A stretch of DNA of 19,563 nt from NCBI GenBank assembly GCA_030615035.1, contig JAUXAC010000018.1, positions 1-19,563 of the forward strand, written 5' to 3'. The DNA is from Dehalococcoidia bacterium (GTDB lineage: Bacteria; Chloroflexota; Dehalococcoidia; Dehalococcoidales; RBG-16-60-22). Both the position numbers and the translations under genes were made by a program. The number at the start of each line of letters is the position of its first letter. Positions within the stretch are counted from its first letter, which is position 1. Under the pieces are notes generated by a model. That model did no database searches. It worked only from the letters and a program-made list of their open reading frames with translations, and was not told where the DNA came from. Below, one piece after another: positions 1,980 to 15,086 of the stretch.

Positions 1980-1999
1980 ATCTTTCTCCAACCGAGAGT

Positions 2000-2029: not shown

Positions 2030-2048
2030 GAGCACACCCTGTTGACAG

Positions 2049-2147
2049 TCCAAAGTTATAACTAAATTCCGCGCGTACACAGGTTTATCTCTGTGATTTG
2101 AGGTATTGACAAACCCCCATTAGAGAACTAAACTCAGGTCCTAACAT
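2049..2147 (+). repeat. Promoter-bearing interspersed repeat, copy 1
   Basis: A 99-base segment starting TCCAAAG, closely matching copy 2 at 2620-2718 over its full length, ungapped, with about 17-20 differences. Shared blocks include ATTCCGCGCG, CACAGGTTTATCTCTGTGAT, TTGAGGTATTGACAAACCC and CTAAACTCAGGTC. The last two blocks contain a promoter. The copy lies directly upstream of the riboflavin kinase-like gene. CACAG and CTGTG inside it could pair as a small hairpin. Confidence 0.85.
2106..2134 (+). promoter_or_regulatory. Sigma-70-type promoter inside repeat copy 1
   Basis: TTGACA (2106-2111), 17-base spacer, TAAACT (2129-2134). The same boxes and the same spacing recur in copy 2 although several spacer bases differ, which suggests the promoter is the conserved part. 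A start near 2141 would transcribe the riboflavin kinase-like gene at 2190. Confidence 0.6.
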
Positions 2148-2189
2148 ACGAATCCCCTCGTGCACAGCAATCATCAACAAGGAGAAAGC

Positions 2190-2615
2190 ATGATGGACAA
2201 AAAACAGGTCTACAAGGGAATAGTCACGACAGGGCGTGGAGCGGGCACCGGGAAGATGTCTGCCCCCGGCGTCCTGGAGGGGTTCAGGCAGCTGACCGGG
2301 CTTTCTGTAATTCCTGGGACGCTGAATATAAACCTTACCGAAGACTTCGACCTGTCCTTGCTCAACTACGCCTCCTTTGTCGATTTGGGTATGCCACAGG
2401 TGGACCTTGCGACGATGGGAATAGACTTCAATGGTGAGCAAGGCCTCCACTATGGCCAGGTAGTCATCGCGGCTAGATATCCGGGGTGTGTTCTCTGCTT
2501 CACGTGGGTCGGCCGACCCGGCATCAATGCAGAACTAGTCAGCCCTCACCATCTCCGCAACACTCTCAATCTGCAGGACGGGGACACAGTTGAGTTCACG
2601 CTGGTCAGTGATTGA
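2190..2615 (+). CDS. CTP-dependent riboflavin kinase-like protein (DUF120 family)
   Basis: The 141-residue product resembles the archaeal RibK/DUF120 family, which makes FMN from riboflavin using CTP. The N-terminal glycine-rich stretch GRGAGTGKMSAPG fits the nucleotide-binding loop. It is followed by GFRQLTGLSVIPGTLNINL, the family's P-G-T-L-N signature. The C-terminal half has GRPGINAELVSPHHLRNTL and then NLQDGDTVEFTL, matching the usual ending (hLRexLnLkdGDxVeh). There is no N-terminal winged-helix domain as in many archaeal members, so this is the kinase domain alone. The ATG at 2190 has GGAG five bases upstream; a GTG at 2160 is in frame but lacks a ribosome site. The gene is visibly more GC-rich than its neighbours and is bracketed by direct repeats, suggesting acquisition. 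Activity is inferred. FMN supply could matter for the flavoprotein encoded further on, but nothing links them directly. Confidence 0.8.
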   Translation: MMDKKQVYKGIVTTGRGAGTGKMSAPGVLEGFRQLTGLSVIPGTLNINLTEDFDLSLLNYASFVDLGMPQVDLATMGIDFNGEQGLHYGQVVIAARYPGCVLCFTWVGRPGINAELVSPHHLRNTLNLQDGDTVEFTLVSD

Positions 2616-2619
2616 GCAA

Positions 2620-2718
2620 TCCAAAGTCCTAACTACATTCCGCGCGCACACAGGTTTATCTCTGTGATTTGAGGTATTGACAAACCCTCAGGAGAGGACT
2701 AAACTCAGGTCACAACAT
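2620..2718 (+). repeat. Promoter-bearing interspersed repeat, copy 2
   Basis: The partner of copy 1, beginning five bases after the stop codon of the riboflavin kinase-like gene, so that gene sits between two 99-base direct repeats. The head (TCCAAAGTCCTAACTAC, ATTCCGC) is nearly identical to copy 3 and recognisable in copies 4 and 5. Confidence 0.85.
2677..2705 (+). promoter_or_regulatory. Sigma-70-type promoter inside repeat copy 2
   Basis: TTGACA (2677-2682), 17-base spacer, TAAACT (2700-2705), the same geometry as in copy 1. The predicted start near 2712 would give a leader of about 150 bases before the NTF2-like gene at 2860. I see no terminator or riboswitch in that leader. Confidence 0.55.
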
Positions 2719-2859
2719 GTGAAATGACCTTAGAATAAAATAATTGTAGTGTTGGTTTAGGAGCTGAATAGATGAACAAGGGCACTGGAAGCGCTAAATA
2801 GTATAGCGATGGCTGGTGCTCTTTTTGAATGGCTCAGAAAATAATTTAAAAGGGGGTAA

Positions 2860-3294
2860 ATGATAATGACCAACGAAGAGATTGCCAACATCATGCGTGA
2901 TTTTGTACAGACGATGGCGAAAGGGGACGTAGAGAAAGCGCTTTCTTTTTTTACTGAAGACGGTGCTTTTGTCAACCCCAATGGTACATTCAAGGGCAAG
3001 GATGAGTTGAGGCGCTGTTTGTCTGCTGAGTCTATGCAGAATATGACAGTTACTGAAACTGGTAACGGGATTATAGTGGAGGGAAATAAAGCCTTTTTCG
3101 AGCACATTATAGCCTCTACGGTTCAAGGCCGGAGAGGAGAAGTACTGGCTATGTGTGCGTATGAGTTTAGCGATGGAAAGATCAAGGAGGTCAGGGCAGT
3201 ATTCGATAGATTATCGATGGCTCAGCAGGCAGCCAAAGGTTGGCTACCTAAAATGCTTGTGAACTTTATTGTAAAGCAAATGGAAAAAATGTAG
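2860..3294 (+). CDS. NTF2/SnoaL-like domain protein
   Basis: A 144-residue soluble protein with the features of the NTF2-like superfamily (SnoaL and DUF4440 types), small cone-shaped alpha+beta proteins that bind or isomerise small molecules. The N-terminal helix with DFVQTMAKGDVEKALSFF is followed by TEDGAFVNPNGTFKGKDELR, the typical 'tdDavwvnpngtf.Gkdel' region. Beta-strands with alternating hydrophobics follow (FFEHIIASTVQG, AMCAYEFSDGKIKEVRAVFD). The C-terminus is a basic helical tail. GGGGG lies four bases before the ATG at 2860; a second ATG at 2866 is possible. The substrate cannot be told. It forms a one-gene unit between repeat copies 2 and 3. Confidence 0.8.
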   Translation: MIMTNEEIANIMRDFVQTMAKGDVEKALSFFTEDGAFVNPNGTFKGKDELRRCLSAESMQNMTVTETGNGIIVEGNKAFFEHIIASTVQGRRGEVLAMCAYEFSDGKIKEVRAVFDRLSMAQQAAKGWLPKMLVNFIVKQMEKM

Positions 3295-3325
3295 AGCGGA
3301 AAGAGTTTCAACTACCACCTCCATC

Positions 3326-3365
3326 TCCAAAGTCCTAACTACATTCCGCACGCCCAGGGGTTCAT
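3326..3365 (+). repeat. Interspersed repeat, copy 3 (head only)
   Basis: The first 24 bases (TCCAAAGTCCTAACTAC then ATTCCGC) are identical to copy 2. It continues ACGCCCAGGGGTTCAT as in copy 5, then similarity stops and the promoter half is missing. It follows the NTF2-like gene and abuts a different repeat element at 3364. Confidence 0.75.
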
Positions 3366-3401
3366 GAGGTAACAATCTGACGTAATGTTCAATCTACCGA
3401 T
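3364..3401 (+). repeat. Second repeat family, copy a
   Basis: ATGAGGTAAC is followed by a 30-base block containing TGACGTAATGTTCAATCT. That 18-base core is exact at 19207-19224. The 10-mer ATGAGGTAAC appears reverse-complemented just upstream of the other copy. Function unknown. Confidence 0.6.
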
Positions 3402-3508
3402 AAGGGGATCTGGAATAGTCCGTTTCTCCACTCGCTACCTGAGGTTTGGGATTCTTGACGACGCCCACAGCCTTTAATGAACCTTGAGCTTAACCCTTGC
3501 CAATTTTC

Positions 3509-3537
3509 TTGACAGTATCTCACAGTAATAGTAAAAT
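3509..3537 (+). promoter_or_regulatory. Sigma-70-type promoter of the rpoN-kinase-activator operon
   Basis: TTGACA (3509-3514), 17-base spacer, TAAAAT (3532-3537): a perfect -35 and 5/6 -10. The predicted start is near 3544, only a few bases before the first plausible ATG (3548), so the mRNA may be leaderless or nearly so. Confidence 0.7.
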
Positions 3538-3547
3538 ATTTATACAA

Positions 3548-4660
3548 ATGACAGGCTTACGGATGGAACAAATACAATCCCTGCAGATGCGACAGGAACT
3601 AAGCCAAATCCTCCGAATGGAACAGGCTAACCTGCTCGAAATGACTGAGGATGAGTTTCATAGGCTGATCACCGAGATAGAACAGGGTCCCCTTTTCAAG
3701 AGGCTTTACCAGAGAGAAAAGCTAATCCACTATCAGAGACTCCCCAGAACCGATGTTTCCTCCAGTTTCTATCAACTTAAAGAAGAGATGGTAGCCGATA
3801 GAGGCTCTATGGATGTTGAATCCCTCTTGCTGAACAAGGAGCATATTGTCCGTCAAATACAGAAATTGGGGCTGGAGAAATTCAAACGGTATTTCTTATT
3901 CCCTGAATCAGGGATGATCCTTGAAGAAATCGCCAGAGAGTGCGACTTGGAGGTTTCAGAGGTTAAGAAAATAAATAACCTTATTGATGAGTTCTCTATT
4001 ATGAATGAGTTTTATCATCGCTCCAATGTCATCTCAGGTGGCATTCGCTATTCCAAGGTCGCCTCAGTAGAAAGGGATGAGAAGGGCTTTGTTATCGGCT
4101 ACTTCTCAGCTTCTTTGGCTCGCGGCCGATATTCGATTGATTATGAAAGATTTAAAGAGTTAAAGGCGGCTGGTACATTCACCGAAGCTGAGGTCAAAGA
4201 AGCCAGGCAGTTATTCAAGAGGCTGGAACTAATCAATACCCGTAAAGAGACCCTAAGTCAAATCCTACAAAATATTATTGACAAGCAAGCCCTCTATCTA
4301 GAGTCTGGTGATTTAAGGTCTCTTTTACCCTTCAGTCAAAAGGAGCTAGCCGAAAAGATTAAACTTGCTCCCAGTTCAGTAAGTCGTGCTATCAGGAGGA
4401 AAAGCATAGATGTCCCTTGGGGTCAAGAAATTCCCCTTAAACACTTCTTCCCCAGACCGAAGAAGTTTAGGAAGGAACTGCTTAGGCAGCTTCTTGAAAC
4501 TAATAACGATCTTTCCTCTGATGGGGCAATCCGGATCAAGCTCTGGGAGAAATTTGGTGTGGCAATCTCCCGGCGCTCGGTGGCAAATCTGAGGAAAGAA
4601 CTTAAAATTCCAACACCTCGAGAAAAACGGCACTCAATCGGGGGCAGGGAGACGAGATGA
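3548..4660 (+). CDS. rpoN: Divergent, short RNA polymerase sigma-54 factor
   Basis: Sigma-54 directs polymerase to -24/-12 promoters and needs an AAA+ activator. The C-terminus carries an RpoN box, SRRSVANLRKELKIPTPREK (classically ARRTVAKYRE). Before it is the DNA-binding helix-turn-helix region: LPFSQKELAEKIKLAPSSVS, then RAIRRK, then IPLKHFFPR, matching the family's '..SrVSRa...K.v.tp.G...LK.FF'. The N-terminus (MEQIQSLQMRQELSQILRM) fits the Gln/Leu-rich region I that contacts activators. At about 370 residues it is shorter than the usual 430-490 and the acidic region II is reduced. Translation from an upstream TTG at 3497 would start before the predicted promoter, so I chose the ATG at 3548; the ATG at 3563 is equally possible. 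The stop overlaps the kinase start (ATGA). It is probably dedicated to the local NtrC protein. Confidence 0.87.
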   Translation: MTGLRMEQIQSLQMRQELSQILRMEQANLLEMTEDEFHRLITEIEQGPLFKRLYQREKLIHYQRLPRTDVSSSFYQLKEEMVADRGSMDVESLLLNKEHIVRQIQKLGLEKFKRYFLFPESGMILEEIARECDLEVSEVKKINNLIDEFSIMNEFYHRSNVISGGIRYSKVASVERDEKGFVIGYFSASLARGRYSIDYERFKELKAAGTFTEAEVKEARQLFKRLELINTRKETLSQILQNIIDKQALYLESGDLRSLLPFSQKELAEKIKLAPSSVSRAIRRKSIDVPWGQEIPLKHFFPRPKKFRKELLRQLLETNNDLSSDGAIRIKLWEKFGVAISRRSVANLRKELKIPTPREKRHSIGGRETR

Positions 4661-6606
4661 GCATTGTTTATACCGAGCGAGAAAAGTGCAAAGGAGGCCA
4701 TGCCTGTTTGCGTAGCTGCCCAGTCAGGGCAATCAGAGTAAAAGAGCACTTGGCTGATGTCATAAAGGAACGCTGTATCGCCTGCGGCAACTGCATCCAG
4801 ACCTGCCTTGCCAAGGCAAACCGAGTGGAGAGCGACGTAGGGATAGTTTGGCAACTACTGGAGCAGCGTCAACCTGTAATTGCTCTGCTTTCGGCTCCGT
4901 TTCCAGCCGCTTTTCCCGAAGTTCACCCAGGACAGCTTGTAACCGCCCTGAAAAAACTTGGATTTAGTGGGGTTATAGAGGATTCCTTCGGTGCTGAGCT
5001 AGTCAGCCGCGAATATGCCCGCCTTATGGATGAAAATAATGGCAAACCTATCCTCTCATCTCCCTGTCCGGTAGTAGTGTCTTACATTGAGAAATATTAT
5101 CCCCAGCTAATTGATAACTTGGCTCCCATCGTCTCGCCCATGATAGCTATGGGTAGACTGATTAAGCGACAGTACAATCCACAGGCTAAGGTAGTCTTCA
5201 TCGGTCCTTGCATAGCCAGAAAAGCCGAGGCTGAAGATGAAAAGGTTAGTGGAGTGATAGATGCTGTCCTGATCTTTGTCGAGCTGAATGAGATGTTCGC
5301 TGCTAAAGGGATTACTCCTGATACTGAGGAGGGAGGGCAATTCTCTGGTCCTAAGCCCAACCTGGGTCGGCTGTTTGACATATCGGGGGGCTTGCTCACG
5401 GTAGCGGGGCTCTCGGACGACATCCTAGCAAATGAAATCATCAATACCTGTGGTAAGGACTATATGCCCAATGTCCTTCAGGAGTTTGCCGAAGGCAACA
5501 TCACTGCTAAGCTCATCAGCCTGTGTTTCTGTGAGGGCTGTATTGATGGACCAGCCATTGAAAATGACCTGACCATTTTTGGACGGAGGGAAATAATCAG
5601 CAATTATGCTATTAGCCAGTCAGACCCGGCTCAAACCGAGAGGGATATCCAGGAATATGCCGATATTGACCTCAGCCGTAAATTTACCAACCGGGCTGTC
5701 AGCCTACCTACTCCAAGTCAGGAAGATATTCAACGGGTTTTAGAGGAGATTGGTAGGGTAGGCCCTAGCTACCAAATGAATTGCGGTGCTTGTGGCTATA
5801 GCCGCTGCCGAGAGCTGGCTATTGCTGTCTGTCAAGGCTTGGCTGAGGCTAAAATGTGCTGGCCGTACGTGGTTGAGAAGTTGAGGGCTACCCAAGAAGA
5901 GTTAATCCAGACGGAGAAACTGGCCTCTCTAGGTCAGATGGCAGCCTCTGTTGCTCATGAGGTCAATAATCCTTTGTCCGGTGTTTTGATCTACACCAAA
6001 CTATTATTAAAAAAAATAGATAGCGGTACCTTCTCCAAGCAAGAAGCCCTAGGCTACTTGTCGAAGATGGACTCAGAGGTCAGCCGTAGCTCGAGGATAA
6101 TTCGCAATCTTTTAGATTTCGCGCGTCAGTCGGAGCCACTGTTGAGGACAGTAGATGTCAACCCGGTTATGGAGCAAGCCCTCTCCCTGGTAAGCCATCA
6201 AGCCGAGCTCCAAAATATTGAAGTGGTAAAAGAGCTTAGCCCCTCACTACCCAATCTGATGGGTGATTTCGATCAGCTTCAGCAGGTCTTCACTAATCTC
6301 ATCCTGAATGCGGTTCAAGCCATGCCCAATGGGGGCGGTCTAACCGTTTGTACCTCGCTGGTCGGCGATGGTCAGCTCAGGATCGATGTCCAGGATACTG
6401 GGTGCGGAATTCCTAAAGAGAACCTACGCAATCTCTTTACCCCTTTCTTCACCACCAAAGAGAAGGGCAAGGGCGTCGGTTTAGGATTGGCCGTGGTCCA
6501 TGGGATTATCCAGGGACACCAGGGAAGGATAGAAGTGCAAAGCGAGGAGGGAAAGGGGACCACCTTTACTATCTACTTGCCGGTTTACCATGAAGAAAAG
6601 AGCTAA
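4657..6606 (+). CDS. Sensor histidine kinase with ferredoxin and [FeFe]-hydrogenase-like domains
   Basis: A 649-residue protein without membrane segments, so a cytoplasmic sensor. Residues 11-50 form a ferredoxin-like unit (C11, C17, C21 and C40, C43, C46, C50); the first half has Gly14 where a fourth Cys is usual. Residues about 70-310 resemble the [FeFe]-hydrogenase large subunit. Its three cysteine segments are present but altered: SSPCP (C137), GPCIARKAE (C185) and CFCEGCIDGP (C290, C292, C295). Residues 376-401 add a C-x2-C-x4-C-x16-C [4Fe-4S] domain. The HisKA box is SVAHEVNNPLSG (H434). The ATPase has NLILNAVQAM, DTGCGIP, FTPFFTTKEKGKGVGLGLA. It overlaps both neighbours in the operon and should phosphorylate the NtrC protein encoded next. 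The sensed signal is probably H2 or the redox state of an electron carrier. Hydrogenase catalysis is doubtful given the changed ligands. Confidence 0.93.
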   Translation: MSIVYTEREKCKGGHACLRSCPVRAIRVKEHLADVIKERCIACGNCIQTCLAKANRVESDVGIVWQLLEQRQPVIALLSAPFPAAFPEVHPGQLVTALKKLGFSGVIEDSFGAELVSREYARLMDENNGKPILSSPCPVVVSYIEKYYPQLIDNLAPIVSPMIAMGRLIKRQYNPQAKVVFIGPCIARKAEAEDEKVSGVIDAVLIFVELNEMFAAKGITPDTEEGGQFSGPKPNLGRLFDISGGLLTVAGLSDDILANEIINTCGKDYMPNVLQEFAEGNITAKLISLCFCEGCIDGPAIENDLTIFGRREIISNYAISQSDPAQTERDIQEYADIDLSRKFTNRAVSLPTPSQEDIQRVLEEIGRVGPSYQMNCGACGYSRCRELAIAVCQGLAEAKMCWPYVVEKLRATQEELIQTEKLASLGQMAASVAHEVNNPLSGVLIYTKLLLKKIDSGTFSKQEALGYLSKMDSEVSRSSRIIRNLLDFARQSEPLLRTVDVNPVMEQALSLVSHQAELQNIEVVKELSPSLPNLMGDFDQLQQVFTNLILNAVQAMPNGGGLTVCTSLVGDGQLRIDVQDTGCGIPKENLRNLFTPFFTTKEKGKGVGLGLAVVHGIIQGHQGRIEVQSEEGKGTTFTIYLPVYHEEKS

Positions 6607-7951
6607 AATCCTTATCGTTGATGATGAGGCCGTTATCCGCGAGTCACTTCATGACTGGCTCAGCGATGTCGGATATGAGGTGTTTACTGTAGAAAGCGGA
6701 CCTCAAGCCCTAGAGATTCTGGAAAAGGAGAAGGTAGGGATTGTTATTGCCGACCTGGTGATACCAGCGATGGATGGGATCGAATTAATGAAGAGAGCTA
6801 AGGAAATCGTCCCTAATGTTGAGGTAATCATCATTACTGCCTATGGGAGCATCCCCACCGCTACTGCTGCTATGAGGGAAGGAGCCTATGATTACATAGA
6901 GAAGCCCTTCTGCCCGGAGAGGGTAGAATTATTGATTGAGAAATTGATAGAGCGTCAAGGACTAATCGAGGAAAACCTTTCCCTGCACCAGAGATTGGAG
7001 GAGCGCTACCTATTTGAGAATCTCATTGCTAAAAGCCCTAAGATGCAGAAAATAATCGAGTTGATTAAGGTTGTAGCCAAGAGCAATGCCACTGTGTTGA
7101 TTACTGGTGAGAGTGGCACCGGGAAGGAACTTGTCGCGCGGGCCATCCATTCCCAGAGTCATCGTAAGGATAAGCCTTTTGTCGCCGTCAGTTGTGCTGC
7201 TTTGCCAGAGAGTCTCCTTGAGAGCGAGCTATTCGGTCATGAGAAGGGTTCCTTTACCGGGGCTTACGCTCAAAAGAAGGGGAAATTCGAAATCGTTAAT
7301 AAAGGTACCCTCTTTTTGGACGAAATTGGCGAGATGAGTGCCAATATCCAGGTTCATCTGCTGAGAGTGTTGGAAGAGAAGGAATTCACCCGAGTTGGCA
7401 GCAATGAGCTAATCAAAGTTGATGTCAGGGTTGTCTCAGCAACTAGTAAGGATATGAAAAAGGCGGTAGCCAGTAGGCAATTCAGGGAGGATCTTTATTA
7501 TCGACTGAATGTAGTTATCATCGAATTGCCTCCGTTGAGGGAAAAGAAGGAGGACATTCCACTCTTAGCCCAGCATTTCTTAGAAAAGTTTGCTGTGGAA
7601 AATCAAAAAGAGATTACCGGCTTCTCTCCTGATGCTACCGATTTTCTTCTGAAGTGTGAGTGGACAGGTAATGTCCGTGAACTGGAAAATGCTATTGAAA
7701 GGGCAGTCATCTTAGCCAAAAATTCCTATATTGAGGTTGCTGACCTGCCCCAGGAAAACTCGCTATTGACTTGCTCAGCTCCATCAAGGAAAAGCCTTGG
7801 AGAAGTGGAGAAATACCATATCATGAATATACTCAATGAAACCGGCGCGAACTATAGCCAAGCTGCTAAAATCCTGGGGATTTCCAGAATGACACTCTAC
7901 AACAAGATTAGGGCATACCGATTAGATGTAAATAAAATAGACAATGGCTGA
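6590..7951 (+). CDS. NtrC-family sigma-54-dependent response regulator
   Basis: A 453-residue activator with the full REC-AAA+-HTH layout. The receiver (1-120) has the acidic pair D11-D12, phosphoacceptor D55 (IADLVIP) and K105 (IEKPF). The AAA+ domain has Walker A GESGTGKE (173-180), the sigma-54-contacting loop as GSFTGA (220-225; usually GAFTGA), Walker B TLFLDEIGE and the arginine-finger region FREDLYYRLNV. The C-terminal Fis-type helix-turn-helix (about 405-441) contains NYSQAAKILGISRMTLYNKI. The start overlaps the kinase gene by 17 bases, implying translational coupling. With the co-encoded sigma-54 this is a complete signal-to-promoter unit; the nearest candidate target is the -24/-12 promoter at 8028-8045. 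The Ala-to-Ser change in the GAFTGA loop is mild and found in working activators. Confidence 0.96.
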   Translation: MKKRAKILIVDDEAVIRESLHDWLSDVGYEVFTVESGPQALEILEKEKVGIVIADLVIPAMDGIELMKRAKEIVPNVEVIIITAYGSIPTATAAMREGAYDYIEKPFCPERVELLIEKLIERQGLIEENLSLHQRLEERYLFENLIAKSPKMQKIIELIKVVAKSNATVLITGESGTGKELVARAIHSQSHRKDKPFVAVSCAALPESLLESELFGHEKGSFTGAYAQKKGKFEIVNKGTLFLDEIGEMSANIQVHLLRVLEEKEFTRVGSNELIKVDVRVVSATSKDMKKAVASRQFREDLYYRLNVVIIELPPLREKKEDIPLLAQHFLEKFAVENQKEITGFSPDATDFLLKCEWTGNVRELENAIERAVILAKNSYIEVADLPQENSLLTCSAPSRKSLGEVEKYHIMNILNETGANYSQAAKILGISRMTLYNKIRAYRLDVNKIDNG

Positions 7952-7994
7952 CTAATTCTTTTACAGTTGAAGTTTCTGCTTAAAGTAGAGAGTG

Positions 7995-8029
7995 GGCTAT
8001 CCTGAGCATTTGGGATAGCCTTCTCTTTT
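7995..8029 (+). terminator. Intrinsic terminator of the sigma-54/kinase/activator operon
   Basis: GGCTATCC (7995-8002) pairs perfectly with GGATAGCC (8013-8020) across a 10-base loop, followed by TTCTCTTTT. It lies 43 bases after the activator stop codon. Its T-run overlaps the first bases of the next promoter. Confidence 0.88.
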
Positions 8030-8045
8030 GGCAAGAAAATTGCAA
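8028..8045 (+). promoter_or_regulatory. Sigma-54 (-24/-12) promoter
   Basis: TTGGCAAGAAAATTGCAA has GG at 8030-8031 and GC at 8042-8043, exactly ten bases apart, in the TTGGCA and TTGCA contexts of the sigma-54 consensus. Transcription would start near 8055 and read into the REC-TPR-Cys gene and probably on to 12481. An imperfect palindrome, TCTGCTTAAAGTAGA at 7975-7989, could be part of an activator site, but it is short and has three mismatched positions. Confidence 0.8.
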
Positions 8046-8118
8046 CTAAGTAGGATGGAGGTAATAAAATATCACAAAGCAGGTAGTCCTAGAGCGAAGA
8101 ATTAAAGGGGGTGAAAGG

Positions 8119-9141
8119 ATGAGACCGATATTGATAGTAGAGGATGAAACTATTATGAGAGAGTCTCTCCGAGATTGGCTAACTGACACTGGCTACCAAG
8201 TAGAGACTGCTGAGGAGGGAGAGGAGGCGTTAAAAACTATTGCTGAGGAAGACTTTGGTGTTGTCATCCTTGACCTGAGGTTGCCGGGAAAGGATGGGCT
8301 TGAGGTATTAAGAGAGGCTAAGGAGAAAAGACCACAGCTTAAGGGAATCATTATTACTGCTTATCCCTCAGTGCAGACAGCGGTAGAGGCGATGAAAATA
8401 GGGGCTATTGACTACCTCACCAAGCCCTTTGACCTTAATGATCTAGAGAAATCAATCCGGGAGACTCTGGGGGTGGTTCAGGTGGAGATAAGACCGAAGG
8501 CTGTCCCTGCGGAAGCTGTGGCTGAGCCGGTTACAATAGAGAAAGCCAAGGTTGAGGAAGTCATACCCATAACTGCGGAGGAAATCCCAATTCACTTCAG
8601 GCAGGGTAAGGCTCACTTTAGGGCTAGTCGCTACCACGAGGCTCTAAAAGAGTTTGAGACTATCTTGGCAGTTGCACCGGGAAACATCGAGACTGGTATC
8701 TGGCTCCGCAAGACGACGGAAGCGCTAGCCACGAAAGCACAGGTCACAGTGCTGCCAGGGGCAGAGACTGCCCTCACCGAGGAGGCAAGAGCCAAGTACT
8801 GCGTGTGGATGAAGCTCGGGTTGGTCTCCTATCGATTGTGCACCTTTGACTACGACTGCCTCGCCTGTGAGTTTGACCAGGGTGTGCGAGAGCGAATGGC
8901 TGCTGGGGAATCTGAGGTTGAAGAGGTGCTGCGGAGACGGTTGGAGTTACCCGGTAACCAGAGGTTTTGTCTCTATGCCCTGAAGGAGGAGGTCTCCTAC
9001 CGGCTTTGCACTCGAGTCTTTGAGTGCGCTGGATGCGAGTTCACACAATGGGTGGAACATGCTCTGGAACAAAAGGTCGCACTCCGACAAGAAGCTATAC
9101 AGAAAAAGAGCCAGAGTTGGTGGTGGTCTTATTGGGGCTGA
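8119..9141 (+). CDS. Response-regulator receiver protein with TPR-like and duplicated cysteine domains
   Basis: A 340-residue protein with no recognisable DNA-binding or enzymatic output domain. Residues 1-118 are a receiver: acidic cluster E8-D9, phosphoacceptor D52 (ILDLRLPG), T80 and K102 (LTKPFD). It is strikingly like the receiver of the NtrC protein (RESLRDWLTDTGY here, RESLHDWLSDVGY there), so the same kinase may serve both. A charged, proline-containing linker follows. A TPR-like helical pair (about 157-200) contains HFRASRYHEALKEFETIL. The C-terminus has two cysteine segments: C241, C247, C250 with C284 (LCTFDYDCLACEFDQ ... LPGNQRFC), and C297, C303, C306 (LCTRVFECAGCEFTQ). It ends in an odd tryptophan-rich tail, SWWWSYWG. 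AAAGGGGGTGAAAGG precedes the ATG. First gene after the -24/-12 promoter. The cysteines could bind an Fe-S cluster or zinc; function unknown. Confidence 0.9.
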   Translation: MRPILIVEDETIMRESLRDWLTDTGYQVETAEEGEEALKTIAEEDFGVVILDLRLPGKDGLEVLREAKEKRPQLKGIIITAYPSVQTAVEAMKIGAIDYLTKPFDLNDLEKSIRETLGVVQVEIRPKAVPAEAVAEPVTIEKAKVEEVIPITAEEIPIHFRQGKAHFRASRYHEALKEFETILAVAPGNIETGIWLRKTTEALATKAQVTVLPGAETALTEEARAKYCVWMKLGLVSYRLCTFDYDCLACEFDQGVRERMAAGESEVEEVLRRRLELPGNQRFCLYALKEEVSYRLCTRVFECAGCEFTQWVEHALEQKVALRQEAIQKKSQSWWWSYWG

Positions 9142-9205
9142 ATTTGATATTGAGTCTAGCATTGTGCAATAAACTTGAAAGAGAACTGAGGAGGTTACGA
9201 GACAG

Positions 9206-9664
9206 ATGGCTCGAGGACTCGCCAAAATAAATGAAATTGATGGCAAGTATGGCAGTAATAAAAGTGCTCTCATTCAGATACTTCTTGAAATTCAGCGTGA
9301 AAACAACTGGCTTCCCAAAGATACTTTAATGTGGGTTAGCCAGAAGCTGGGGGTTCCCCTGACCGAGACCTACCATGTGGTTACTTTCTATAAAGCCTTC
9401 AGCCTAATGCCTAAAGGACGGCACTCAATAACGGTCTGTCTGGGGACTGCTTGCCATGTGCGTGGGGCACCTCGCCTTTTAGATAGAGTTATAGAGACCT
9501 TGAAGATAAAACCAGGCGAGAGCTCCACAGACATGCGATTTAGCTTAGATACTGTAAACTGTCTTGGCTGCTGTGCTTTAGGACCAGTGATGGTAGTTGA
9601 CAGTGTGTATTACGGTAAGCCTTCGACCAAACAGATTCAGCAAATTTTCGCTACATGCGAATAA
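9206..9664 (+). CDS. NuoE/HoxE/HydC-like [2Fe-2S] subunit
   Basis: A 152-residue thioredoxin-like [2Fe-2S] protein of the 24-kDa subunit family, which relays electrons next to the NADH-oxidising flavoprotein in complex I, NAD-linked hydrogenases and formate dehydrogenases. The N-terminal helical part has LIQILLEIQRENNWLPKDTL and the VSQKLGVPLTETYHVVTFYK segment typical of the family. The cluster ligands are C78 and C83 (CLGTACHVRGA), C119 and C123 (CLGCCALGPV). The length is normal. AGGAGG lies 11 bases before the ATG, slightly far. It follows the REC-TPR-Cys gene by 64 bases with no terminator between them and is followed 19 bases on by the NuoF-like gene. Confidence 0.94.
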   Translation: MARGLAKINEIDGKYGSNKSALIQILLEIQRENNWLPKDTLMWVSQKLGVPLTETYHVVTFYKAFSLMPKGRHSITVCLGTACHVRGAPRLLDRVIETLKIKPGESSTDMRFSLDTVNCLGCCALGPVMVVDSVYYGKPSTKQIQQIFATCE

Positions 9665-9683
9665 GCGACAAGGAGGGAGAGTC

Positions 9684-11609
9684 ATGCCCAGGCTAAACTC
9701 AGCCACTGACCTTGAAAGGTTTAGGCGAGAGATATTAGCCAAGAGAGATGGAACCAGGACTGTCTCAGTAACAAACGGGACAGATGGTCGAACTCGCGGT
9801 AGTCAGAATGTAGTACGAGCCTTTGTCGAGGAAATAGAAAGGCAAGGCTTGAGAGAAAAGGTAGAGGTGAAGAGTGCAGGATGCCATGGCTTCTGTGAAA
9901 AAGAGCCCATCGCGATTATCCTGCCTGACGAAATCTGTTATGTTGGAGTGAAACCTGAGGATGTACCAGAAATCGTCTCCCAAACCCTAGCTAACAGCAA
10001 GATTATTGAGCGCCTTCTTTATGAAGACCCTACTACTGGGCAAAGGATTACAAAGGAAACTGATATACCATTTTACAAATATCAAAATCGAACTGTGTTG
10101 GGGAATAATAGATTCATAGACATGGAAAGTATTGATGATTATATTGCTATTGGCGGCTATTCTGCCTTAGCTAAAGCGCTTTTTGAGATGACACCGGAAC
10201 AAGTGCTGCAAGAGGTTAAAAAGGCTAATCTAAGGGGTAGGGGAGGGGGTGGTTTCCCTGCTGGGATAAAGTGGGAGACCACTCGCAACGCGCCTGGTGA
10301 GATAAAATACGTTATTGTCAATGCTGATGAGGGTGACCCCGGAGCTTATATGGATAGGAGCTTACTTGAGGGCAATCCCCGTAGCGTGCTGGAAGGGTTG
10401 CTAATTGGTGCCCATACTATTGGCTCGCATCAGGGGTTTATCTATGTACGGCAAGAATATCCTCTAGCTGTGGAGAATCTTAGTATTGCCCTAGAGCAGG
10501 CACGGGAGTATGGTCTTCTCGGAACAAACATCCTTGGCTCTGGTTTTGACTTTGATGTTGAAGTGCACCGTGGCGCCGGTGCCTTCGTATCAGGTGAAGA
10601 GTCTGGTTTGATGAGAGCCATAGAGGGCAGGGTAGGAGAGCCAAGACCAAGGTATGTTTACCCTGCGGTGAGGGGGCTCTGGGGAATGCCAACCAATATA
10701 AATAATGTGGAAACCTGGGCTACTGTGCCTCTAATAATCAACAAGGGCGCTGAATGGTTTACTAGCATCGGGACAGAAAGAAGTAAGGGGACAAAGCTTT
10801 TCTCCCTTGTGGGTAAGGTGAATAATACCGGTCTGGTAGAGGTGCCTATGGGGATGACACTCAGAGATGTCATTTTTGATATTGGCGGCGGAATTCCCGG
10901 CGGAAAGAAGTTTAAGGCTGTCCAGACCGGTGGTCCTTCGGGTGGGGTTATTCCCGAGAGCTTACTTGATACCCCCGTAGATTTTGATGAGCTTACCAAA
11001 TTGGGCTCTATCATGGGCTCAGGTGGGATGATTGTGATGGATGAGGATACCTGTGTGGTTGATGTGGCTAGGTATTTCTTCAACTTCCTTGCCGGGGAAT
11101 CCTGTGGCAAGTGTCTTCCCTGCCGTGAGGGAATATACCAGATGCTCAAGATACTGAATAGAATTTGTGAGGGGAAGGGGGAAGAAGCAGACATCGAGTT
11201 ACTAGAGGAAATATCAGAGGTGGTCAGGGATTTCTCGCTTTGTGCTCTTGGTGGGACAGCTCCTAACCCGGTCCTCAGTACTATTAGATACTTCCGAGAC
11301 GAGTATGAAGCTCATATTAGGGAGAAGCGCTGTCCAGCCGGTGTCTGTAAGGCGCTAATATCCTACTATATCGAGCCGGAGAAGTGTCAGGCTTGTCTGA
11401 TTTGTCTCAGGGAATGTCCGGTGGGGACTATCACCGGTGGTAAAAACCTCATTCATATTATTGACCAAGACAAATGCACGAAATGTGGGACTTGTCTTGA
11501 GGTTTGTCCACCACGCTTTGGCGCCATTACCAGACTTTCCGGCGTGAAAGTGCCTGAACCTGTTTTACAAGGGACAGAAGTAATACGGAAACGAGGTAGG
11601 AAAAAATGA
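9684..11609 (+). CDS. NuoF/HoxF/HydB-like NAD(H)-binding flavoprotein
   Basis: A 641-residue subunit that should exchange electrons between NAD(H), FMN and iron-sulfur clusters. Residues 25-100 are a thioredoxin-like domain in which only the second cysteine pair survives (GCHGFC, C67 and C71); the first pair's CxGTxC is TNGTDG (residues 30-35). The FMN/NADH core carries LRGRGGGGFPAGIKW (183-197), VNADEGDPGAYMDRSLLEGN (212-231) and the RGAGAFVSGEESGLM (296-310) segment. An SLBB-like stretch follows, then the [4Fe-4S] site ESCGKCLPCREG with C520. A two-cluster ferredoxin tail has C568, C571, C574, C578 and C598, C601, C604, C608. This tail is found in HydB-type subunits and not in plain NuoF. 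The ATG at 9684 has AAGGAGGG upstream; an earlier in-frame ATG at 9597 lies inside the preceding gene. Confidence 0.95.
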   Translation: MPRLNSATDLERFRREILAKRDGTRTVSVTNGTDGRTRGSQNVVRAFVEEIERQGLREKVEVKSAGCHGFCEKEPIAIILPDEICYVGVKPEDVPEIVSQTLANSKIIERLLYEDPTTGQRITKETDIPFYKYQNRTVLGNNRFIDMESIDDYIAIGGYSALAKALFEMTPEQVLQEVKKANLRGRGGGGFPAGIKWETTRNAPGEIKYVIVNADEGDPGAYMDRSLLEGNPRSVLEGLLIGAHTIGSHQGFIYVRQEYPLAVENLSIALEQAREYGLLGTNILGSGFDFDVEVHRGAGAFVSGEESGLMRAIEGRVGEPRPRYVYPAVRGLWGMPTNINNVETWATVPLIINKGAEWFTSIGTERSKGTKLFSLVGKVNNTGLVEVPMGMTLRDVIFDIGGGIPGGKKFKAVQTGGPSGGVIPESLLDTPVDFDELTKLGSIMGSGGMIVMDEDTCVVDVARYFFNFLAGESCGKCLPCREGIYQMLKILNRICEGKGEEADIELLEEISEVVRDFSLCALGGTAPNPVLSTIRYFRDEYEAHIREKRCPAGVCKALISYYIEPEKCQACLICLRECPVGTITGGKNLIHIIDQDKCTKCGTCLEVCPPRFGAITRLSGVKVPEPVLQGTEVIRKRGRKK

Positions 11610-12235
11610 GCGAAGTTACCTTGATTATCAACGACGACGAGGTTAAAGCTGAGGAGGGGATGACTATTCTTGAAGCGGCGCGAAGTGTGGGAATTGACAT
11701 TCCTACCCTTTGCTATCACGAGAAATTGGCTCCTTATGGTGCTTGCCGGCTGTGCATGGTGGAGATAGTCAGAGGGCGGGGGTCGAGCTTGGTCACCTCT
11801 TGTGTTTATACTGTTGAAGACGGCCTTGTAGTAAAGACGGAATCCGAGCCAGTAATCAAAGGCCGCAAGATGCTACTAGAATTAATGTGGGCCCGTGCCC
11901 CTGGAATCACAGCATTGAGACATTACGGCATAAGATACGGGATAACCGAGGTCAAAGCAATACGAGAGTATGGAGTGATAGTTGACAGAGCCACAGCAAA
12001 GTTTGAAATAGAGCCAACCTTCTGTACCCTGTGTGGGTTATGCGTACGTTACTGCGCGGAGGTGGAAAAGAAGAATGCTATTGGCTTTGTTGGCAGGGGA
12101 ACAGAGCGAGAGGTAGTGTTTTTCCCACAAATAGCTCGTAAGTGGTGCCCCGGTTGTCAAGAGTGCTATTCACTTTGTCCTACAGGGGCGCTTCCATCCC
12201 ACTATGCATTAGCCGAGGCGCATCACTCTACGTAA
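11606..12235 (+). CDS. HoxU/NuoG N-terminus-like iron-sulfur protein
   Basis: A 209-residue electron-transfer protein matching the N-terminal part of NuoG, HoxU or hydrogenase large subunits. A plant-type [2Fe-2S] domain has C36, C47, C50, C66 (CYHEKLAPYGACRLCMVEI). The middle segment around LMWARAPGITALRHYGIRYG is where the usual His-Cys3 [4Fe-4S] motif would be; its cysteines are absent. The C-terminus has two [4Fe-4S] motifs: CTLCGLCVRYC (C140-C150) and CPGCQECYSLCP (C181-C191). It ends there, with no catalytic domain. The start overlaps the NuoF stop by four bases (ATGA), so the two are probably made together. It likely connects the flavoprotein to a partner enzyme encoded elsewhere. Confidence 0.92.
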   Translation: MSEVTLIINDDEVKAEEGMTILEAARSVGIDIPTLCYHEKLAPYGACRLCMVEIVRGRGSSLVTSCVYTVEDGLVVKTESEPVIKGRKMLLELMWARAPGITALRHYGIRYGITEVKAIREYGVIVDRATAKFEIEPTFCTLCGLCVRYCAEVEKKNAIGFVGRGTEREVVFFPQIARKWCPGCQECYSLCPTGALPSHYALAEAHHST

Positions 12236-12247
12236 CCCCTCACGAAG

Positions 12248-12481
12248 ATGGGGATAGTTCCTTATCACATCTGCACCAGCGACTACAACTGCCTCACCTG
12301 TGAGTTTGACCAGATGATGCGGGAGAAGATGGCTAGTGGTGAAACTCCAGAGCTTGATGTGGCACTGGAACGATTTAAGGAATTACCCGGTCATCAGAGG
12401 CTCTGCGCGAAAAAGAGTATAGGCCTCAAGCACAGTGAGGTTTCTTTGGGTAGTAAACAAAAGAGAAGTTTACATCGGTGA
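12248..12481 (+). CDS. Small four-cysteine protein, stand-alone paralogue of the REC-TPR-Cys output domain
   Basis: A 77-residue protein, family not recognised. Residues 4-53 match the first cysteine domain of the protein at 8119: HICTSDYNCLTCEFDQMMRE here against RLCTFDYDCLACEFDQGVRE there. Both continue with a K/RMA.GE stretch, and then LPGHQRLC against LPGNQRFC. Cysteines C9, C15, C18 and C53 keep the spacing C-x5-C-x2-C-x33/34-C. The tail after residue 54 is basic and looks unstructured. The gene starts 12 bases after the HoxU-like gene and is probably last in the operon. The ribosome site is poor, so the exact start is uncertain. A metal-binding or redox adaptor role is inferred from the cysteines and the context only. 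Confidence 0.8.
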   Translation: MGIVPYHICTSDYNCLTCEFDQMMREKMASGETPELDVALERFKELPGHQRLCAKKSIGLKHSEVSLGSKQKRSLHR

Positions 12482-12516
12482 AACAAAAGTCCATTTTGTG
12501 CAATACCATCTCCCTC

Positions 12517-12579
12517 TCAATTGTCGTAACCACATTCCGCACGCTCAGGGGTTCATTGCTATTTGGGTTAATATTGACA
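12517..12579 (+). repeat. Interspersed repeat, copy 4
   Basis: A diverged copy: GTAACCACATTCCGC matches the common head, CAGGGGTTCAT matches copies 3 and 5. TTGACA follows the ATTCCGC block at 33 bases, exactly as in copies 1 and 2. It sits just upstream of the hydrolase gene. Confidence 0.7.
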
Positions 12580-12603
12580 TCATTACTGACTCAGAACTAC
12601 TAT
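12574..12603 (+). promoter_or_regulatory. Promoter at the end of repeat copy 4, for the hydrolase gene
   Basis: TTGACA (12574-12579), 18-base spacer, TACTAT (12598-12603). The predicted start near 12610 lies after the first in-frame ATG (12605), which favours the internal ATG at 12659 as the true start of the hydrolase. Confidence 0.5.
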
Positions 12604-12658
12604 TATGTCACAAATTAAGTCACCGGGGCACAGCGTGCTAAAACTGAAAGGTCTCTTC

Positions 12659-13480
12659 ATGTTAGTTATCTGGATTCTTGTCGTTATCACCAGTGTCTAT
12701 GTCGCATTTGTGGCTCTCATCTATATTGTCCAGCCTAAGTATGTTTACTACCCTGAACGCACTCTATCAGCGGATCCTAGCAGAATCGGGCTTCAATTCG
12801 AGAGCGTCTACTTTAAAACCACAGATGGAGTGAGACTCTCCGGCTGGTTTGTTCCTTGTAAAAGTGCCAGAGGCATGGTTCTTTTTTGTCACGGTAACGC
12901 GGGTAACATATCGCATCGGTTGGAATCCATTGAAATATTTCATAGACTGGGGCTCAACATTTTCATCTTCGACTACCGAGGTTATGGACAAAGCGAAGGA
13001 AAGCCCACAGAGCAGGGCACATATGAAGATGCTTCAGCTGCGTGGCGCTACCTAACTCAGCAGCGTCAAGTGAACCCAAACGAAATCATCGTTTTTGGGC
13101 GGTCCCTCGGGGGTGCAGTTGCGTCATGGCTGGCTCAGAGCCACTCGCCAGGGGCACTTATCCTTGAGTCAACGTTCACGTCTCTGCCCGATATTGCTGC
13201 CAGCCTCTATCCCTACCTTCCGGTCAGGCTGTTGTTACGTTTTAAATACAATACGGCGGAGTACCTAGGTAAGGTAAATTGCCCCGTTCTGATTGTTCAC
13301 AGCCGCGATGATAAAATAATGCCGTTTAGCCACGGCCGCCGACTATTTGAGATGGCGAGTGAGCCAAGGAAATTTCTGGAAATTTCTGGAACTCATAATG
13401 AGGGATTCATTACCTCGGGCAAAGATTATGAAAAAGGCCTGAATGCATTCATCTCAGAGCATATCGAGCCCAGAACTTGA
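12659..13480 (+). CDS. Membrane-anchored alpha/beta hydrolase
   Basis: A serine hydrolase of the alpha/beta fold, similar to the BEM46/ABHD13-like group; substrate unknown. It begins with one transmembrane helix (LVIWILVVITSVYVAFVALI), followed by the family's YYPERTL segment and a TTDGVRLSGWFVP strand. FCHGNAGNISHR forms the oxyanion-hole region, FDYRGYGQSEGKPTEQG is the usual second motif and GRSLGGAVA holds the nucleophile serine. The acid is in HSRDDKIMP and the histidine in SGTHNEGF, so the catalytic triad is complete. The catalytic part probably lies outside the membrane. An ATG at 12605 is in frame, but the promoter at 12574-12603 would start transcription after it, so I chose 12659 (weak AAAGG upstream). 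It forms a one-gene unit between repeat copies 4 and 5. Confidence 0.88.
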   Translation: MLVIWILVVITSVYVAFVALIYIVQPKYVYYPERTLSADPSRIGLQFESVYFKTTDGVRLSGWFVPCKSARGMVLFCHGNAGNISHRLESIEIFHRLGLNIFIFDYRGYGQSEGKPTEQGTYEDASAAWRYLTQQRQVNPNEIIVFGRSLGGAVASWLAQSHSPGALILESTFTSLPDIAASLYPYLPVRLLLRFKYNTAEYLGKVNCPVLIVHSRDDKIMPFSHGRRLFEMASEPRKFLEISGTHNEGFITSGKDYEKGLNAFISEHIEPRT

Positions 13481-13552
13481 AGGACAGACCGAATCTTGGC
13501 GGTTACACATTTTGGCTAAATGTTCAGTTTCTAGCCTATCATAAATTTGCTC

Positions 13553-13617
13553 CCCAAACTCGTAACTACATTCCGCCGCACGCCCAGGGGTTCATCTCTA
13601 CTCTGGGGGTATTGACA
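13553..13617 (+). repeat. Interspersed repeat, copy 5
   Basis: CGTAACTACATTCCGC, then CGCCCAGGGGTTCATCTCT and GGGGGTATTGACA. TTGACA lies 35 bases after the ATTCCGC block. No -10 box stands at a sensible distance, so the promoter appears lost. CCCAG and CTGGG inside it could pair. It lies between the hydrolase stop and the tRNA-like gene. Confidence 0.75.
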
Positions 13618-13656
13618 ATCAAGCATAGCCTAAAGGTCTGAACCTTCAATACTCTT

Positions 13657-13733
13657 TGGTAGCGGTGGTTAGATTCGAACCAGTACTCTCCTCCTTGAGA
13701 GGGAGGTGTCCTAAACCCCTAGACGAATGCGCC
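13657..13733 (-). tRNA. tRNA-Glu(CTC)-like gene with degenerate acceptor and T stems
   Basis: On the minus strand the 77-base segment starts GGCGCATTCGTCTAGGGG and ends GCTACCA. The anticodon arm is perfect: CCTCC, loop CTCTCAA (anticodon CTC, reading GAG), GGAGG. The D arm GTCT/GGAC closes with one wobble, and the T loop TTCGAAT and encoded CCA are normal. Two stems are damaged: acceptor positions 5-7 do not pair (C-C, A-A, T-C) and the first pair is G-T; the T stem ACTGG/CTAAC pairs at only three of five positions. It could be a decayed tRNA gene or a copy whose 3' part was replaced. A functional tRNA-Glu presumably lies elsewhere. Confidence 0.65.
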
Positions 13734-13833
13734 ACATAATATACTTGTTGTTCTTGACGAAAGTGGTCTCGTCAGTCAGAGGCTCATGATTTCCCTTTGC
13801 GGGAACATCTTCTTTTCTTAGGCACATCTCACC

Positions 13834-13849
13834 CACATGTCAACATGTG
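13834..13849. other. Short palindrome downstream of the receptor gene
   Basis: CACATG, four bases, CATGTG: a perfect 6-bp inverted repeat. There is no T-run on either side, so it is not a convincing terminator; an operator or chance are both possible. Confidence 0.25.
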
Positions 13850-13924
13850 AAAGTGTCGCTTCACGCACTGACAGCGATACGAAACTCCTTGCGGGTACGA
13901 TAGCCTATGCTATATTATGGGCTT

Positions 13925-14914
13925 CTACTTCTCCACGTACTCGGCCAGGGCACCCGTCAAAAAGGCCTCCCTTTCCTCCCACACCCTCCGGGTCTCGTCC
14001 CAGGGAAGAGGCCACATGGGAGATCCGCCCTGCGCCATTTTCCCGATAACCTTTTTGTTGCTAAGCTGTGCATAGTAAGCGTCGCGCAGCTTCGTAAGGA
14101 TAGCTGGGGCGACTCCGGCTGGGGCTGCCAGTCCCCGGCAATTGTTGCTGGTATCGTCGACGTCTATACCCGACTCCATAAGGGTCGGAACATCAGGTAG
14201 GAACTCGGTATTTCTCTGCAAGTCAGCAATGGCCAGAATCTTTAGCCTGTCCTTACTGCGATAAGCATCGGAGAGATTGTTAAAACCGGCCATGGCCTCG
14301 CCGGCGATGACGGCGGTCAGGGCAGGGACACCGCCTGTATGGGGAACGTAGGTCAGTTCCACATCAGCCGCCTTCCCAAGCTGGAGAAAAGCAATGTGGT
14401 GCCCTACGAACTTCCCGGCCCCGGTGATAGTAACCTTACCCGGGTTTTCCTTGGCGAACGCTACCAAGTCATCAACAGTGTCAAAGGGGCTGTCTTTTCC
14501 CACAACGAGTGTGGCTGGGTCAGCGCCCCAGTTGATAACAGGCTCCCACACGCGGATATTATACGAAGCCTTCTTGGGATAAACAATGGACTGGGCGATA
14601 AAGTGGGGGATGTTGTAGCCGGCCAGCATGTAGCCATCAGGCTCAGCCTCCTCAGTAAACCAGTTCCATCCTACCATGCCGCCAGCCCCTGGTTTATTAA
14701 CGATGACGGTAGGCTGCCCTAGGTAATCCTCCAATCCAGACATCATGGTAACAATGCGAGCCTGAAAATCAGAGGCTCCCCCGGGATTGTAAGGTATAAT
14801 CACGGTGATCGGCTTTGCCGGGAATTCTTCCTCAGGGGCTGGTGCACAGGCACCAAGAACCATCGCCGTAATCAGAATCCCCCCCAGAATTAACAGAAAA
14901 CCTTTCTTTTTCAT
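13925..14914 (-). CDS. tctC: Tripartite tricarboxylate transporter substrate-binding lipoprotein (TctC/Bug family)
   Basis: The extracytoplasmic receptor of a TTT-type carboxylate uptake system, 329 residues. The signal peptide MKKKGFLLILGGILITAMVL ends in the lipobox LGAC, so C23 should be lipid-modified and the protein anchored outside the membrane. The mature part begins with the Bug signature region KPITVIIPYNPGGASDFQAR. Two typical segments follow: IVNKPGAGGMVGWNWF and GKVTITGAG. The last third has AIADLQRNTEFLPDVPTLME and GLAAPAGVAP, both family hallmarks. The ATG at 14914 has a strong GGAGGACGAGGAGG stretch in front; an in-frame TTG at 14935 is inside that ribosome site. It is downstream of the permease gene and also has its own promoter. 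The ligand is not predictable from sequence. Confidence 0.93.
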   Translation of the reverse strand: MKKKGFLLILGGILITAMVLGACAPAPEEEFPAKPITVIIPYNPGGASDFQARIVTMMSGLEDYLGQPTVIVNKPGAGGMVGWNWFTEEAEPDGYMLAGYNIPHFIAQSIVYPKKASYNIRVWEPVINWGADPATLVVGKDSPFDTVDDLVAFAKENPGKVTITGAGKFVGHHIAFLQLGKAADVELTYVPHTGGVPALTAVIAGEAMAGFNNLSDAYRSKDRLKILAIADLQRNTEFLPDVPTLMESGIDVDDTSNNCRGLAAPAGVAPAILTKLRDAYYAQLSNKKVIGKMAQGGSPMWPLPWDETRRVWEEREAFLTGALAEYVEK

Positions 14915-15051: not shown

Positions 15052-15086
15052 GAGGCTTCACTCTTTTTAGTGATATCCTGGGATTT

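Follow-up and report, generated by a model that had tools for sequence, protein, structure and literature searches.

Sigma-54 is usually treated as a global factor with many activators. The nearest precedent for the locus described below is Chlamydia trachomatis, in which, according to the accessible part of PMC12282069, a two-component kinase/activator pair (CtcB/CtcC) works with one sigma-54, and chromatin immunoprecipitation sequencing of sigma-54 found just two bound promoters, whose sequences are conserved in the order. In Borrelia, as far as the accessible part of the source goes, RpoN and the NtrC-like activator Rrp2 act on rpoS, and, according to the accessible part of PMC3162934, just a subset of Chloroflexi possesses sigma-54 and its activators. 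Here we analyse a gene cluster at positions 3509-12481 of a 19,563-nucleotide stretch of DNA (hereafter the window) from a Dehalococcoidia bacterium (assembly GCA_030615035.1, contig JAUXAC010000018.1, positions 1-19,563 of the forward strand), in which genes for a sigma-54, a histidine kinase and an activator precede a -24/-12 promoter, a gene for a REC-TPR-Cys protein (REC being a receiver domain) and a redox module.

The locus appears to be a private circuit dedicated to about one promoter, as an earlier note made from the window's letters alone had suggested. We read it so from the conserved promoter boxes, from the single sigma-54 and single strong activator, and from the lack of an excess of near-matches elsewhere in the genomes. 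To the fuller reading, in which a self-contained sigma-54 circuit would serve essentially one promoter and its redox kinase would also address redox-linked RECs, we give a probability of roughly two in three. Literature searches returned no description of this circuit for sigma-54 in Dehalococcoidia or Chloroflexota (subscription journals lay mostly outside their coverage), and a search for single-promoter sigma-54 turned up the Chlamydia paper and no account of this circuit; the accessible part of PMC5736913 has no occurrence of 'sigma'.

The promoter and its regulators

A scan of genome contigs gave 18 loci (L001-L018, from genomes G001-G018), 17 of which are labelled Dehalococcoidales, Dehalococcoidia, Chloroflexi or Chloroflexota. 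L018 carries a Deltaproteobacteria label and the same circuit, with a sigma-54 that is 70% identical, and is either a mislabelled bin or a transfer; L017 is truncated within the sigma-54 gene. A draw of 294 genomes from the class to which G006 belongs added five further circuits (L035-L039), and L040 is a second contig of the L003 genome. The comparison set is the window together with 22 related genomes carrying the circuit sigma-54, the relatives all being drafts of unstated completeness, and it provided 23 intergenic regions (window, L001, L002, L004-L016, L018 and L035-L040). The order sigma-54, kinase, activator, promoter, output gene is kept throughout this set wherever the contigs extend.

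All 23 regions contain TTGGCA-N4-AATTGC at no more than one mismatch (19 perfectly; L004, L008, L011 and L039 with one mismatch), against 0.01 regions expected in all from 300 dinucleotide shuffles per region, which is the conservation in relatives that the earlier note had set as a check. The motif is retained in L038 although the sigma-54 there is just 42% identical, a tandem pair of boxes is seen by eye at several loci, and each of the 23 predicted promoters has the GG-N10-GC pattern of sigma-54. In 17 of the 23 regions TTTACA lies within 75 nucleotides past the end of the activator match (0.83 expected from a mononucleotide shuffle); the spacing is usual for an enhancer, and we offer the element, purely as a lead, as a candidate activator site.

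The window's sigma factor is taken as a reduced member of the sigma-54 family. Pfam matched only its DNA-binding domain, and NCBIfam rpoN scored 89 bits against a cut-off of 277. The C-terminal DNA-binding domain contains an RpoN box, in which, going by the canonical box, we presume R337, R338, V340 and R344 to lie; all four are invariant in 25 aligned sequences (the window's and 24 of the 720 homologues at E ≤ 0.001, the best 120 of which were examined). When its low-confidence structural model was submitted to Foldseek, sigma-54 chains took ranks 1-21 (best E 2.8e-7, about 420 columns, template modelling score 0.36). The activator is of the NtrC type, with matches to PF00072, PF00158 and PF02954 and a GSFTGA motif in its translation; its best NCBIfam match is AtoC, at 486.8 bits against a cut-off of 714.

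Both regulators are close to unique in their genomes. PF04552 was found in 17 of the 18 scan genomes, once in each except G001, which has two matches, and not in G017, where the locus is cut; the five later circuit genomes (G100, G160, G225, G243, G276) have one each, so that exactly one sigma-54 is present in 21 of the 22 draft genomes having this gene. A strong PF00158 match occurs once per genome in 22 of 22 (248-259 bits, or 165 bits in G015, where the frame is split in two). The remaining PF00158 matches score 18-35 bits, many of them in frames of about 780-900 amino acids whose size suggests Clp/Lon-like proteins, and we regard them as AAA+ background because PF00158 matches also occur in all 14 control genomes, archaea included.

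These components suggest a path from signal to promoter, each step of which is standard for the families concerned and fits the sequence. A housekeeping-type promoter would make the regulator operon, and Fe-S clusters in the hydrogenase-like domain would let the kinase read the cellular redox state. Once its REC had been phosphorylated by the kinase, the activator would, from a site 5' of the -24/-12 box, open the single conserved sigma-54 promoter that was found in the genome. From this promoter would come the REC-TPR-Cys protein together with the redox module that follows it (NuoE-NuoF-HoxU in the window; heterodisulfide reductase (Hdr) or [NiFe]-hydrogenase genes in some relatives).

Output genes and receiver domains

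Downstream of the promoter, all 23 loci have a REC or TPR-Cys gene. The REC-TPR-Cys protein was matched over its full length in 19 of them (L004 being cut by the contig end, and the gene of L012 coming after a short Cys open reading frame (ORF)), and eight cysteines are conserved in the 15 proteins aligned from the 23 loci. Scoring of 8000 candidates gave 2411 homologues at E ≤ 0.001, the best 120 of which were examined.

Downstream genes were compared in the 21 loci, window included, in which at least 1.3 kb follows the output gene. Five of them carry NuoE-NuoF-HoxU on the same strand (window, L006, L009, L016 and L035, the last with a broken NuoF frame), and Hdr-type genes follow in the same orientation in L007, L010 and L013-L016 (L014 by Pfam, the others by eye). 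Also on that strand, L002, L011 and L018 have a second REC-Cys gene, L008 has several RECs, and L038 has [NiFe]-hydrogenase subunits (Pfam). L001, L005, L012, L037, L039 and L040 continue with genes of other kinds or on the opposite strand. NuoE-NuoF-HoxU was rejected as a fixed target, since it is directly downstream in just these five loci, and the usual target is the REC-TPR-Cys gene. The earlier note had been prepared to give up its proposal if the two halves lay at unrelated loci in relatives: the regulators and a REC or TPR-Cys gene stay together throughout, whereas NuoE-NuoF-HoxU mostly does not follow them. In the window, domains of the HoxE, HoxF and HoxU kinds are all present (Pfam), with top NCBIfam scores under the cut-offs; the HoxU-like protein matches FeFe_hydrog_A6 and HoxU best, and no hydrogenase subunit, including a HoxYH partner, was found among the window ORFs scanned.

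RECs recur on the redox proteins themselves. In L006 a REC is fused to HoxU, and such fusions account for 75 of the best 120 of 6446 homologues (manual count); other fusion partners of RECs in this group are a GltD-like Fe-S oxidoreductase (L008, L048), NuoF, which carries the REC at its C-terminus (L050), and an FNR-like Fe-S protein (L051, L038). By eye, [NiFe]-hydrogenase genes adjoin L048, L049 and L051, and HdrA adjoins L047. Of the 17 genomes with matches at E ≤ 1e-22, 16 have the activator REC as their top match beyond this redox-tag group; in the exception, G013, a 183-amino-acid REC protein (L053) outscores it, and G017 has no match. A first REC helix of the form R-x-S-x-x-D/E-W-L is common to the group, with few deviations. 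Close RECs (E ≤ 1e-33, at most 15 candidates scored per genome) occur in 10 of 11 circuit genomes versus 5 of 283 others (Fisher p 2.9e-14, the related genomes not being independent). At L053:3205-3756 (-) and L057:14221-14778, close RECs are joined to an N-terminal domain that by eye resembles a ribbon-helix-helix DNA-binding domain.

Because the redox-linked RECs share the recognition helix of the activator REC, we infer that the same kinase probably phosphorylates those of the output protein and of the redox subunits, adjusting the electron-entry subunits, so that one signal would set both transcription and electron-entry activity. L056 and L057 encode the same kinase core (67% and 60%) with another sensor, directly before REC-Cys genes beside Hdr-like genes (by eye), in genomes where neither a PF04552 match nor a strong activator was found, an arrangement that fits a kinase addressing redox-linked RECs without a promoter. 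One kinase may thus control both transcription and electron-entry enzymes. In its most specific form, the proposal is that one redox kinase would drive the sole sigma-54 promoter and, by phosphorylating RECs in HoxU, NuoF, GltD-like and FNR-like subunits of hydrogenase or Hdr complexes, would directly gate electron transfer; we advance it tentatively, at somewhat under even odds.

Another possibility is a private transcription circuit in which the REC tags of redox proteins gate no electron transfer and are phosphate sinks, docking parts or relics. The FNR-fused REC of L038 is indeed degenerate, and the first output protein of that locus has no REC at all. In the other aligned REC-redox fusions, however, the phospho-site Asp, Thr and Lys appear intact by eye, except for a Lys to Arg change in L051, and the abundance of REC-HoxU fusions and the recurrence of REC tags on four kinds of redox subunit likewise make this alternative unlikely. 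If the same kinase does phosphorylate the REC-tagged subunits, the electron-entry enzymes of these uncultured sediment anaerobes would be under direct two-component control. We did not find metabolic control of this form described in the literature searched, and none of the papers listed in searches on receiver domains of diaphorases, heterodisulfide reductases or bifurcating enzymes described it.

Promoters elsewhere and the sensed signal

Alternatively, this sole sigma-54 might be an ordinary global factor whose many promoters depart from the strict motif, the linked promoter being only the best conserved of them. Some real sigma-54 promoters match the consensus poorly, and our scan used one strict motif class, which degenerate promoters escape. 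The 18 scan genomes contain 19 perfect matches, 15 at the circuit locus, three within ORFs (L043-L045, taken as chance) and one intergenic elsewhere; the last (L041:808-823 (-)) lies about 46 bases before a gene resembling those of flavin adenine dinucleotide (FAD) oxidoreductases in G017, the genome with the cut circuit locus, and counts in favour of a global role. So does the number of one-mismatch sites, 191 compared with 44 for the pattern read backwards. The same half-sites with one extra spacer base, however, gave 214 sites, so that the correctly spaced motif is in no excess across the 18 genomes; and since this wrongly spaced pattern beats its own backwards control in the same way (214 versus 52), we do not take the backwards-control gap as an excess of promoters. 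With one strong activator per genome as well, a global role appears quite improbable. The earlier note would have yielded to a sole rpoN serving many promoters: the rpoN is sole in nearly all genomes, and the many promoters did not appear. As far as the draft sequences extend, one sigma-54, one activator and one or two promoters match a few-target system of the Chlamydia type.

In the 294 genomes of the class, PF04552 was found in 16, of which 11 are of the circuit type, four score higher (G025, G039, G045, G140) and one is odd (G138). Perfect matches number 76: 14 in the 11 circuit genomes (10 at the locus, 4 elsewhere), three in the non-circuit PF04552 genomes and 59 in the 278 genomes without PF04552, or 0.21 per genome. 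The odd protein of G138 (L042, G138:C9) is sigma-54-like, about 30% identical, and is followed by a 1085-amino-acid histidine-kinase-like ORF, with no circuit on that contig.

As to the signal, the earlier note had the kinase reading H2 or carrier redox state. In 14 kinase orthologues the two ferredoxin clusters, Cys 137, 185, 292 and 295 of the hydrogenase-like domain and Cys 376, 379, 384 and 401 of PF04060 are conserved, except that residue 14 of the window kinase is Gly where the 13 others have a ferredoxin Cys; the L039 kinase, outside this alignment, also reads CRGGYAC. The third ligand motif (L3), canonically C-x3-C, is C-x2-C in all 14, a departure from the H-cluster spacing. Residues T, S, N or P replace the first Cys of TSCCP, and Gly takes the place of the Met in the second motif. 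Changes of this C299/M353 type do not exclude an H-cluster, because they are common in sensory [FeFe]-hydrogenases (C299 replaced by Ala in about 43%, Pro in about 10% and Ser in about 10%, M353 by Gly in about 51%), the ligating Cys being conserved there according to the accessible part of PMC10055695. HydF was above its cut-off in none of the 18 draft scan genomes (best 98.8 versus 325.6 bits; HydE, HydG and the five later genomes lay outside this search), 13 of which show the Fe-S sensor kinase, the others having the membrane type or a cut locus; weaker GTPase matches appeared in all 18, and one of 14 control genomes scored above the cut-off.

We therefore dropped H2 sensing by an H-cluster on the HydF result and the L3 motif, leaving the C299/M353 changes aside. 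The hydrogenase-like domain probably holds an H-cluster no longer, and the kinase is likely a redox-state sensor where the Fe-S sensor is present, so that of the two signals first proposed the redox state is the one that stands. That the kinase is a true sensory [FeFe]-hydrogenase of the HydS type, measuring H2 by an H-cluster, is very improbable: the strength of the Fe_hyd_lg_C match (Table 1), the sensory enzymes likewise without C299 and M353, and the hydrogenase genes that flank the circuits of L038 (by Pfam) and of L005 and L037 (by eye) speak for it, yet HydF stays below cut-off, L3 departs from a ligation said to be conserved, and the sensor is replaced in four of 23 circuits. In these four (L001, L003, L015, L018) a short hydrophobic, apparently membrane domain sits, by eye, on the same kinase core, and in the L001 kinase Pfam finds kinase parts only; the sensed signal can thus change while the circuit stays. 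Within the class the Fe-S sensor occurs in 15 of 294 genomes: in G195, in ten of the 11 with the circuit (the membrane type takes its place in G018) and, in more distant forms, in G138, G181, G240 and G258. L061 and L062 (G240 and G181) encode 566-amino-acid proteins with the same hydrogenase-like sensor (37%) beside a weak NuoE-like match, without a sigma-54.

Besides the strict motif class, the backwards-pattern gap and the exchanged sensors, several observations weigh against a self-contained circuit for essentially one promoter. The two other Pfam sigma-54 domains gave no match to the window protein at E ≤ 10, and its model, with helices at 2-51, has a mean predicted local distance difference test score of 60. 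Immediately 5' of the circuit in G001, and divergent from it, lies a second, diverged sigma-54-like ORF (L001:1473-2096 (-), a 454-amino-acid frame with 37 bits to PF04552), and a second rpoN or activator could be missing from draft genomes. In L008, L016 and L039 the first REC protein has a different tail with no Cys-tail match, and in L038 a TPR-Cys protein comes without a REC, which is found on the next protein. Close RECs occur in five circuit-free genomes (G058, G101, G194, G205, G287), and L060 (G195:C3) has kinase and activator (58-61%) without sigma-54, box or adjoining REC gene, possibly a remnant or a circuit that lost its sigma-54.

Layout of the window and known systems

ORF and Pfam scans found every gene named in the earlier note in its place and confirmed the succession of terminator, -24/-12 promoter and REC-TPR-Cys gene (Table 1). 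The TTGGCAAGAAAATTGC box lies directly 3' of the terminator-like hairpin, and the stretch around the hairpin (7985-8040) folds at -25.2 kcal/mol (z -3.7); counted over the region as a whole, neither terminator-like nor promoter-like sites exceed the shuffled range. The sigma-54 and kinase genes overlap by 4 nucleotides, and the kinase and activator genes by 17. An ATG at 3548 is a possible alternative start of the sigma-54, and the regulator mRNA may be nearly leaderless, since the -10-like box ends (3537) 10 nucleotides 5' of it.

Table 1. Features of the cluster, in window coordinates
Feature	Position	Strand	Basis
Sigma-70-like promoter of the regulator operon, TTGACA-17-TAAAAT	3509-3537	+	11/12 consensus bases; consensus match only
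Reduced sigma-54 (taken as), 365 amino acids	3563-4660	+	Pfam Sigma54_DBD (PF04552) 1.1e-20; Foldseek ranks 1-21 all sigma-54 (SigN) chains
Histidine kinase: 2x[4Fe-4S] ferredoxin part, [FeFe]-hydrogenase-like domain, PF04060 Fe-S domain, HisKA, HATPase_c	4657-6606	+	Fe_hyd_lg_C 1.4e-46; cluster binding predicted from conserved Cys
NtrC/AtoC-type sigma-54 activator: REC, AAA+, HTH_8	6590-7951	+	Sigma54_activat 2.6e-74
TTTACA element, candidate activator (enhancer) site	7960-7965	+	Recurrence in relatives
Intrinsic terminator-like hairpin 3' of the regulator genes	7994-8021	+	12 pairs
-24/-12 promoter TTGGCAAGAAAATTGC, GG-N10-GC	8028-8043	+	23/23 regions at ≤1 mismatch
REC-TPR-Cys protein, two C-x12-C-x5-C-x2-C motifs	8119-9141	+	Pfam; 8 Cys conserved in 15 aligned proteins
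NuoE/HoxE-like subunit	9206-9664	+	Pfam, NCBIfam
NuoF-like subunit, additional C-terminal 2x[4Fe-4S] domain	9684-11609	+	Pfam, NCBIfam
HoxU-like [2Fe-2S]/[4Fe-4S] subunit	11606-12235	+	Pfam, NCBIfam
Small Cys protein, 77 amino acids	12248-12481	+	Repeats one Cys motif of REC-TPR-Cys (8811-8913 vs 12244-12346, 73%)

A Pfam search with the small Cys protein gave no credible match, and Rfam and tRNA scans of the window gave none. A dispersed repeat with the core AAAGTCCTAACTACATTCCGC occurs at 2036-2088, 2607-2659, 3313-3365, 12504-12556 and 13551-13576, two copies flanking the cluster; a 24-base pattern derived from these two was not found in 62 loci. Another repeat pair, of 31 nucleotides and 87% identical, lies at 3372-3402 and 19201-19231. 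Downstream, at 13925-17048 (-) and 17309-18838, are genes for TctC, a TctA-TctB fusion (tripartite tricarboxylate transporter) and an AMP-binding enzyme.

Each part of the circuit has relatives among described systems. The activator shares the REC-AAA+-HTH_8 architecture of NtrC/AtoC-type proteins; here it is the sole strong activator in each of 22 genomes, and its REC resembles those fused to redox enzymes. The kinase has in common with the HydS sensory [FeFe]-hydrogenases, as described in the accessible part of PMC10055695, a hydrogenase-like domain with altered C299 and M353 positions, and differs in its L3 spacing, in the lack of HydF above cut-off, and in its fusion to a PF04060 Fe-S domain and a kinase. 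NuoE-, NuoF- and HoxU-like subunits are shared with the HoxEFU/NuoEF diaphorase and electron-bifurcating HydABC modules, unlike which the window has no hydrogenase subunit among the ORFs scanned and gives sub-cut-off scores, while the HoxU or NuoF of relatives carries a fused REC.

As a whole, the locus shares RpoN and an NtrC-like activator with the Rrp2-RpoN-RpoS pathway of Borrelia, where the output is another sigma factor controlling many genes, and the genes are not known to form one cluster with their target. A lineage in which a lone sigma-54 sits beside its lone activator and roughly one promoter would be a natural minimal version of the system, useful for asking why activator-dependent melting merits a whole sigma factor and well suited to reconstitution in vitro, and some uncultured anaerobes seem to keep their own sensor, switch and sigma factor for about one electron-flow promoter. 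Compared with Chlamydia, for which the accessible part of PMC12282069 gives two targets (ctl0021 and ctl0052), the circuit described here has one promoter locus, known from sequence; its target promoter lies directly 3' of the regulator operon, and its output is redox-related and bears REC tags.

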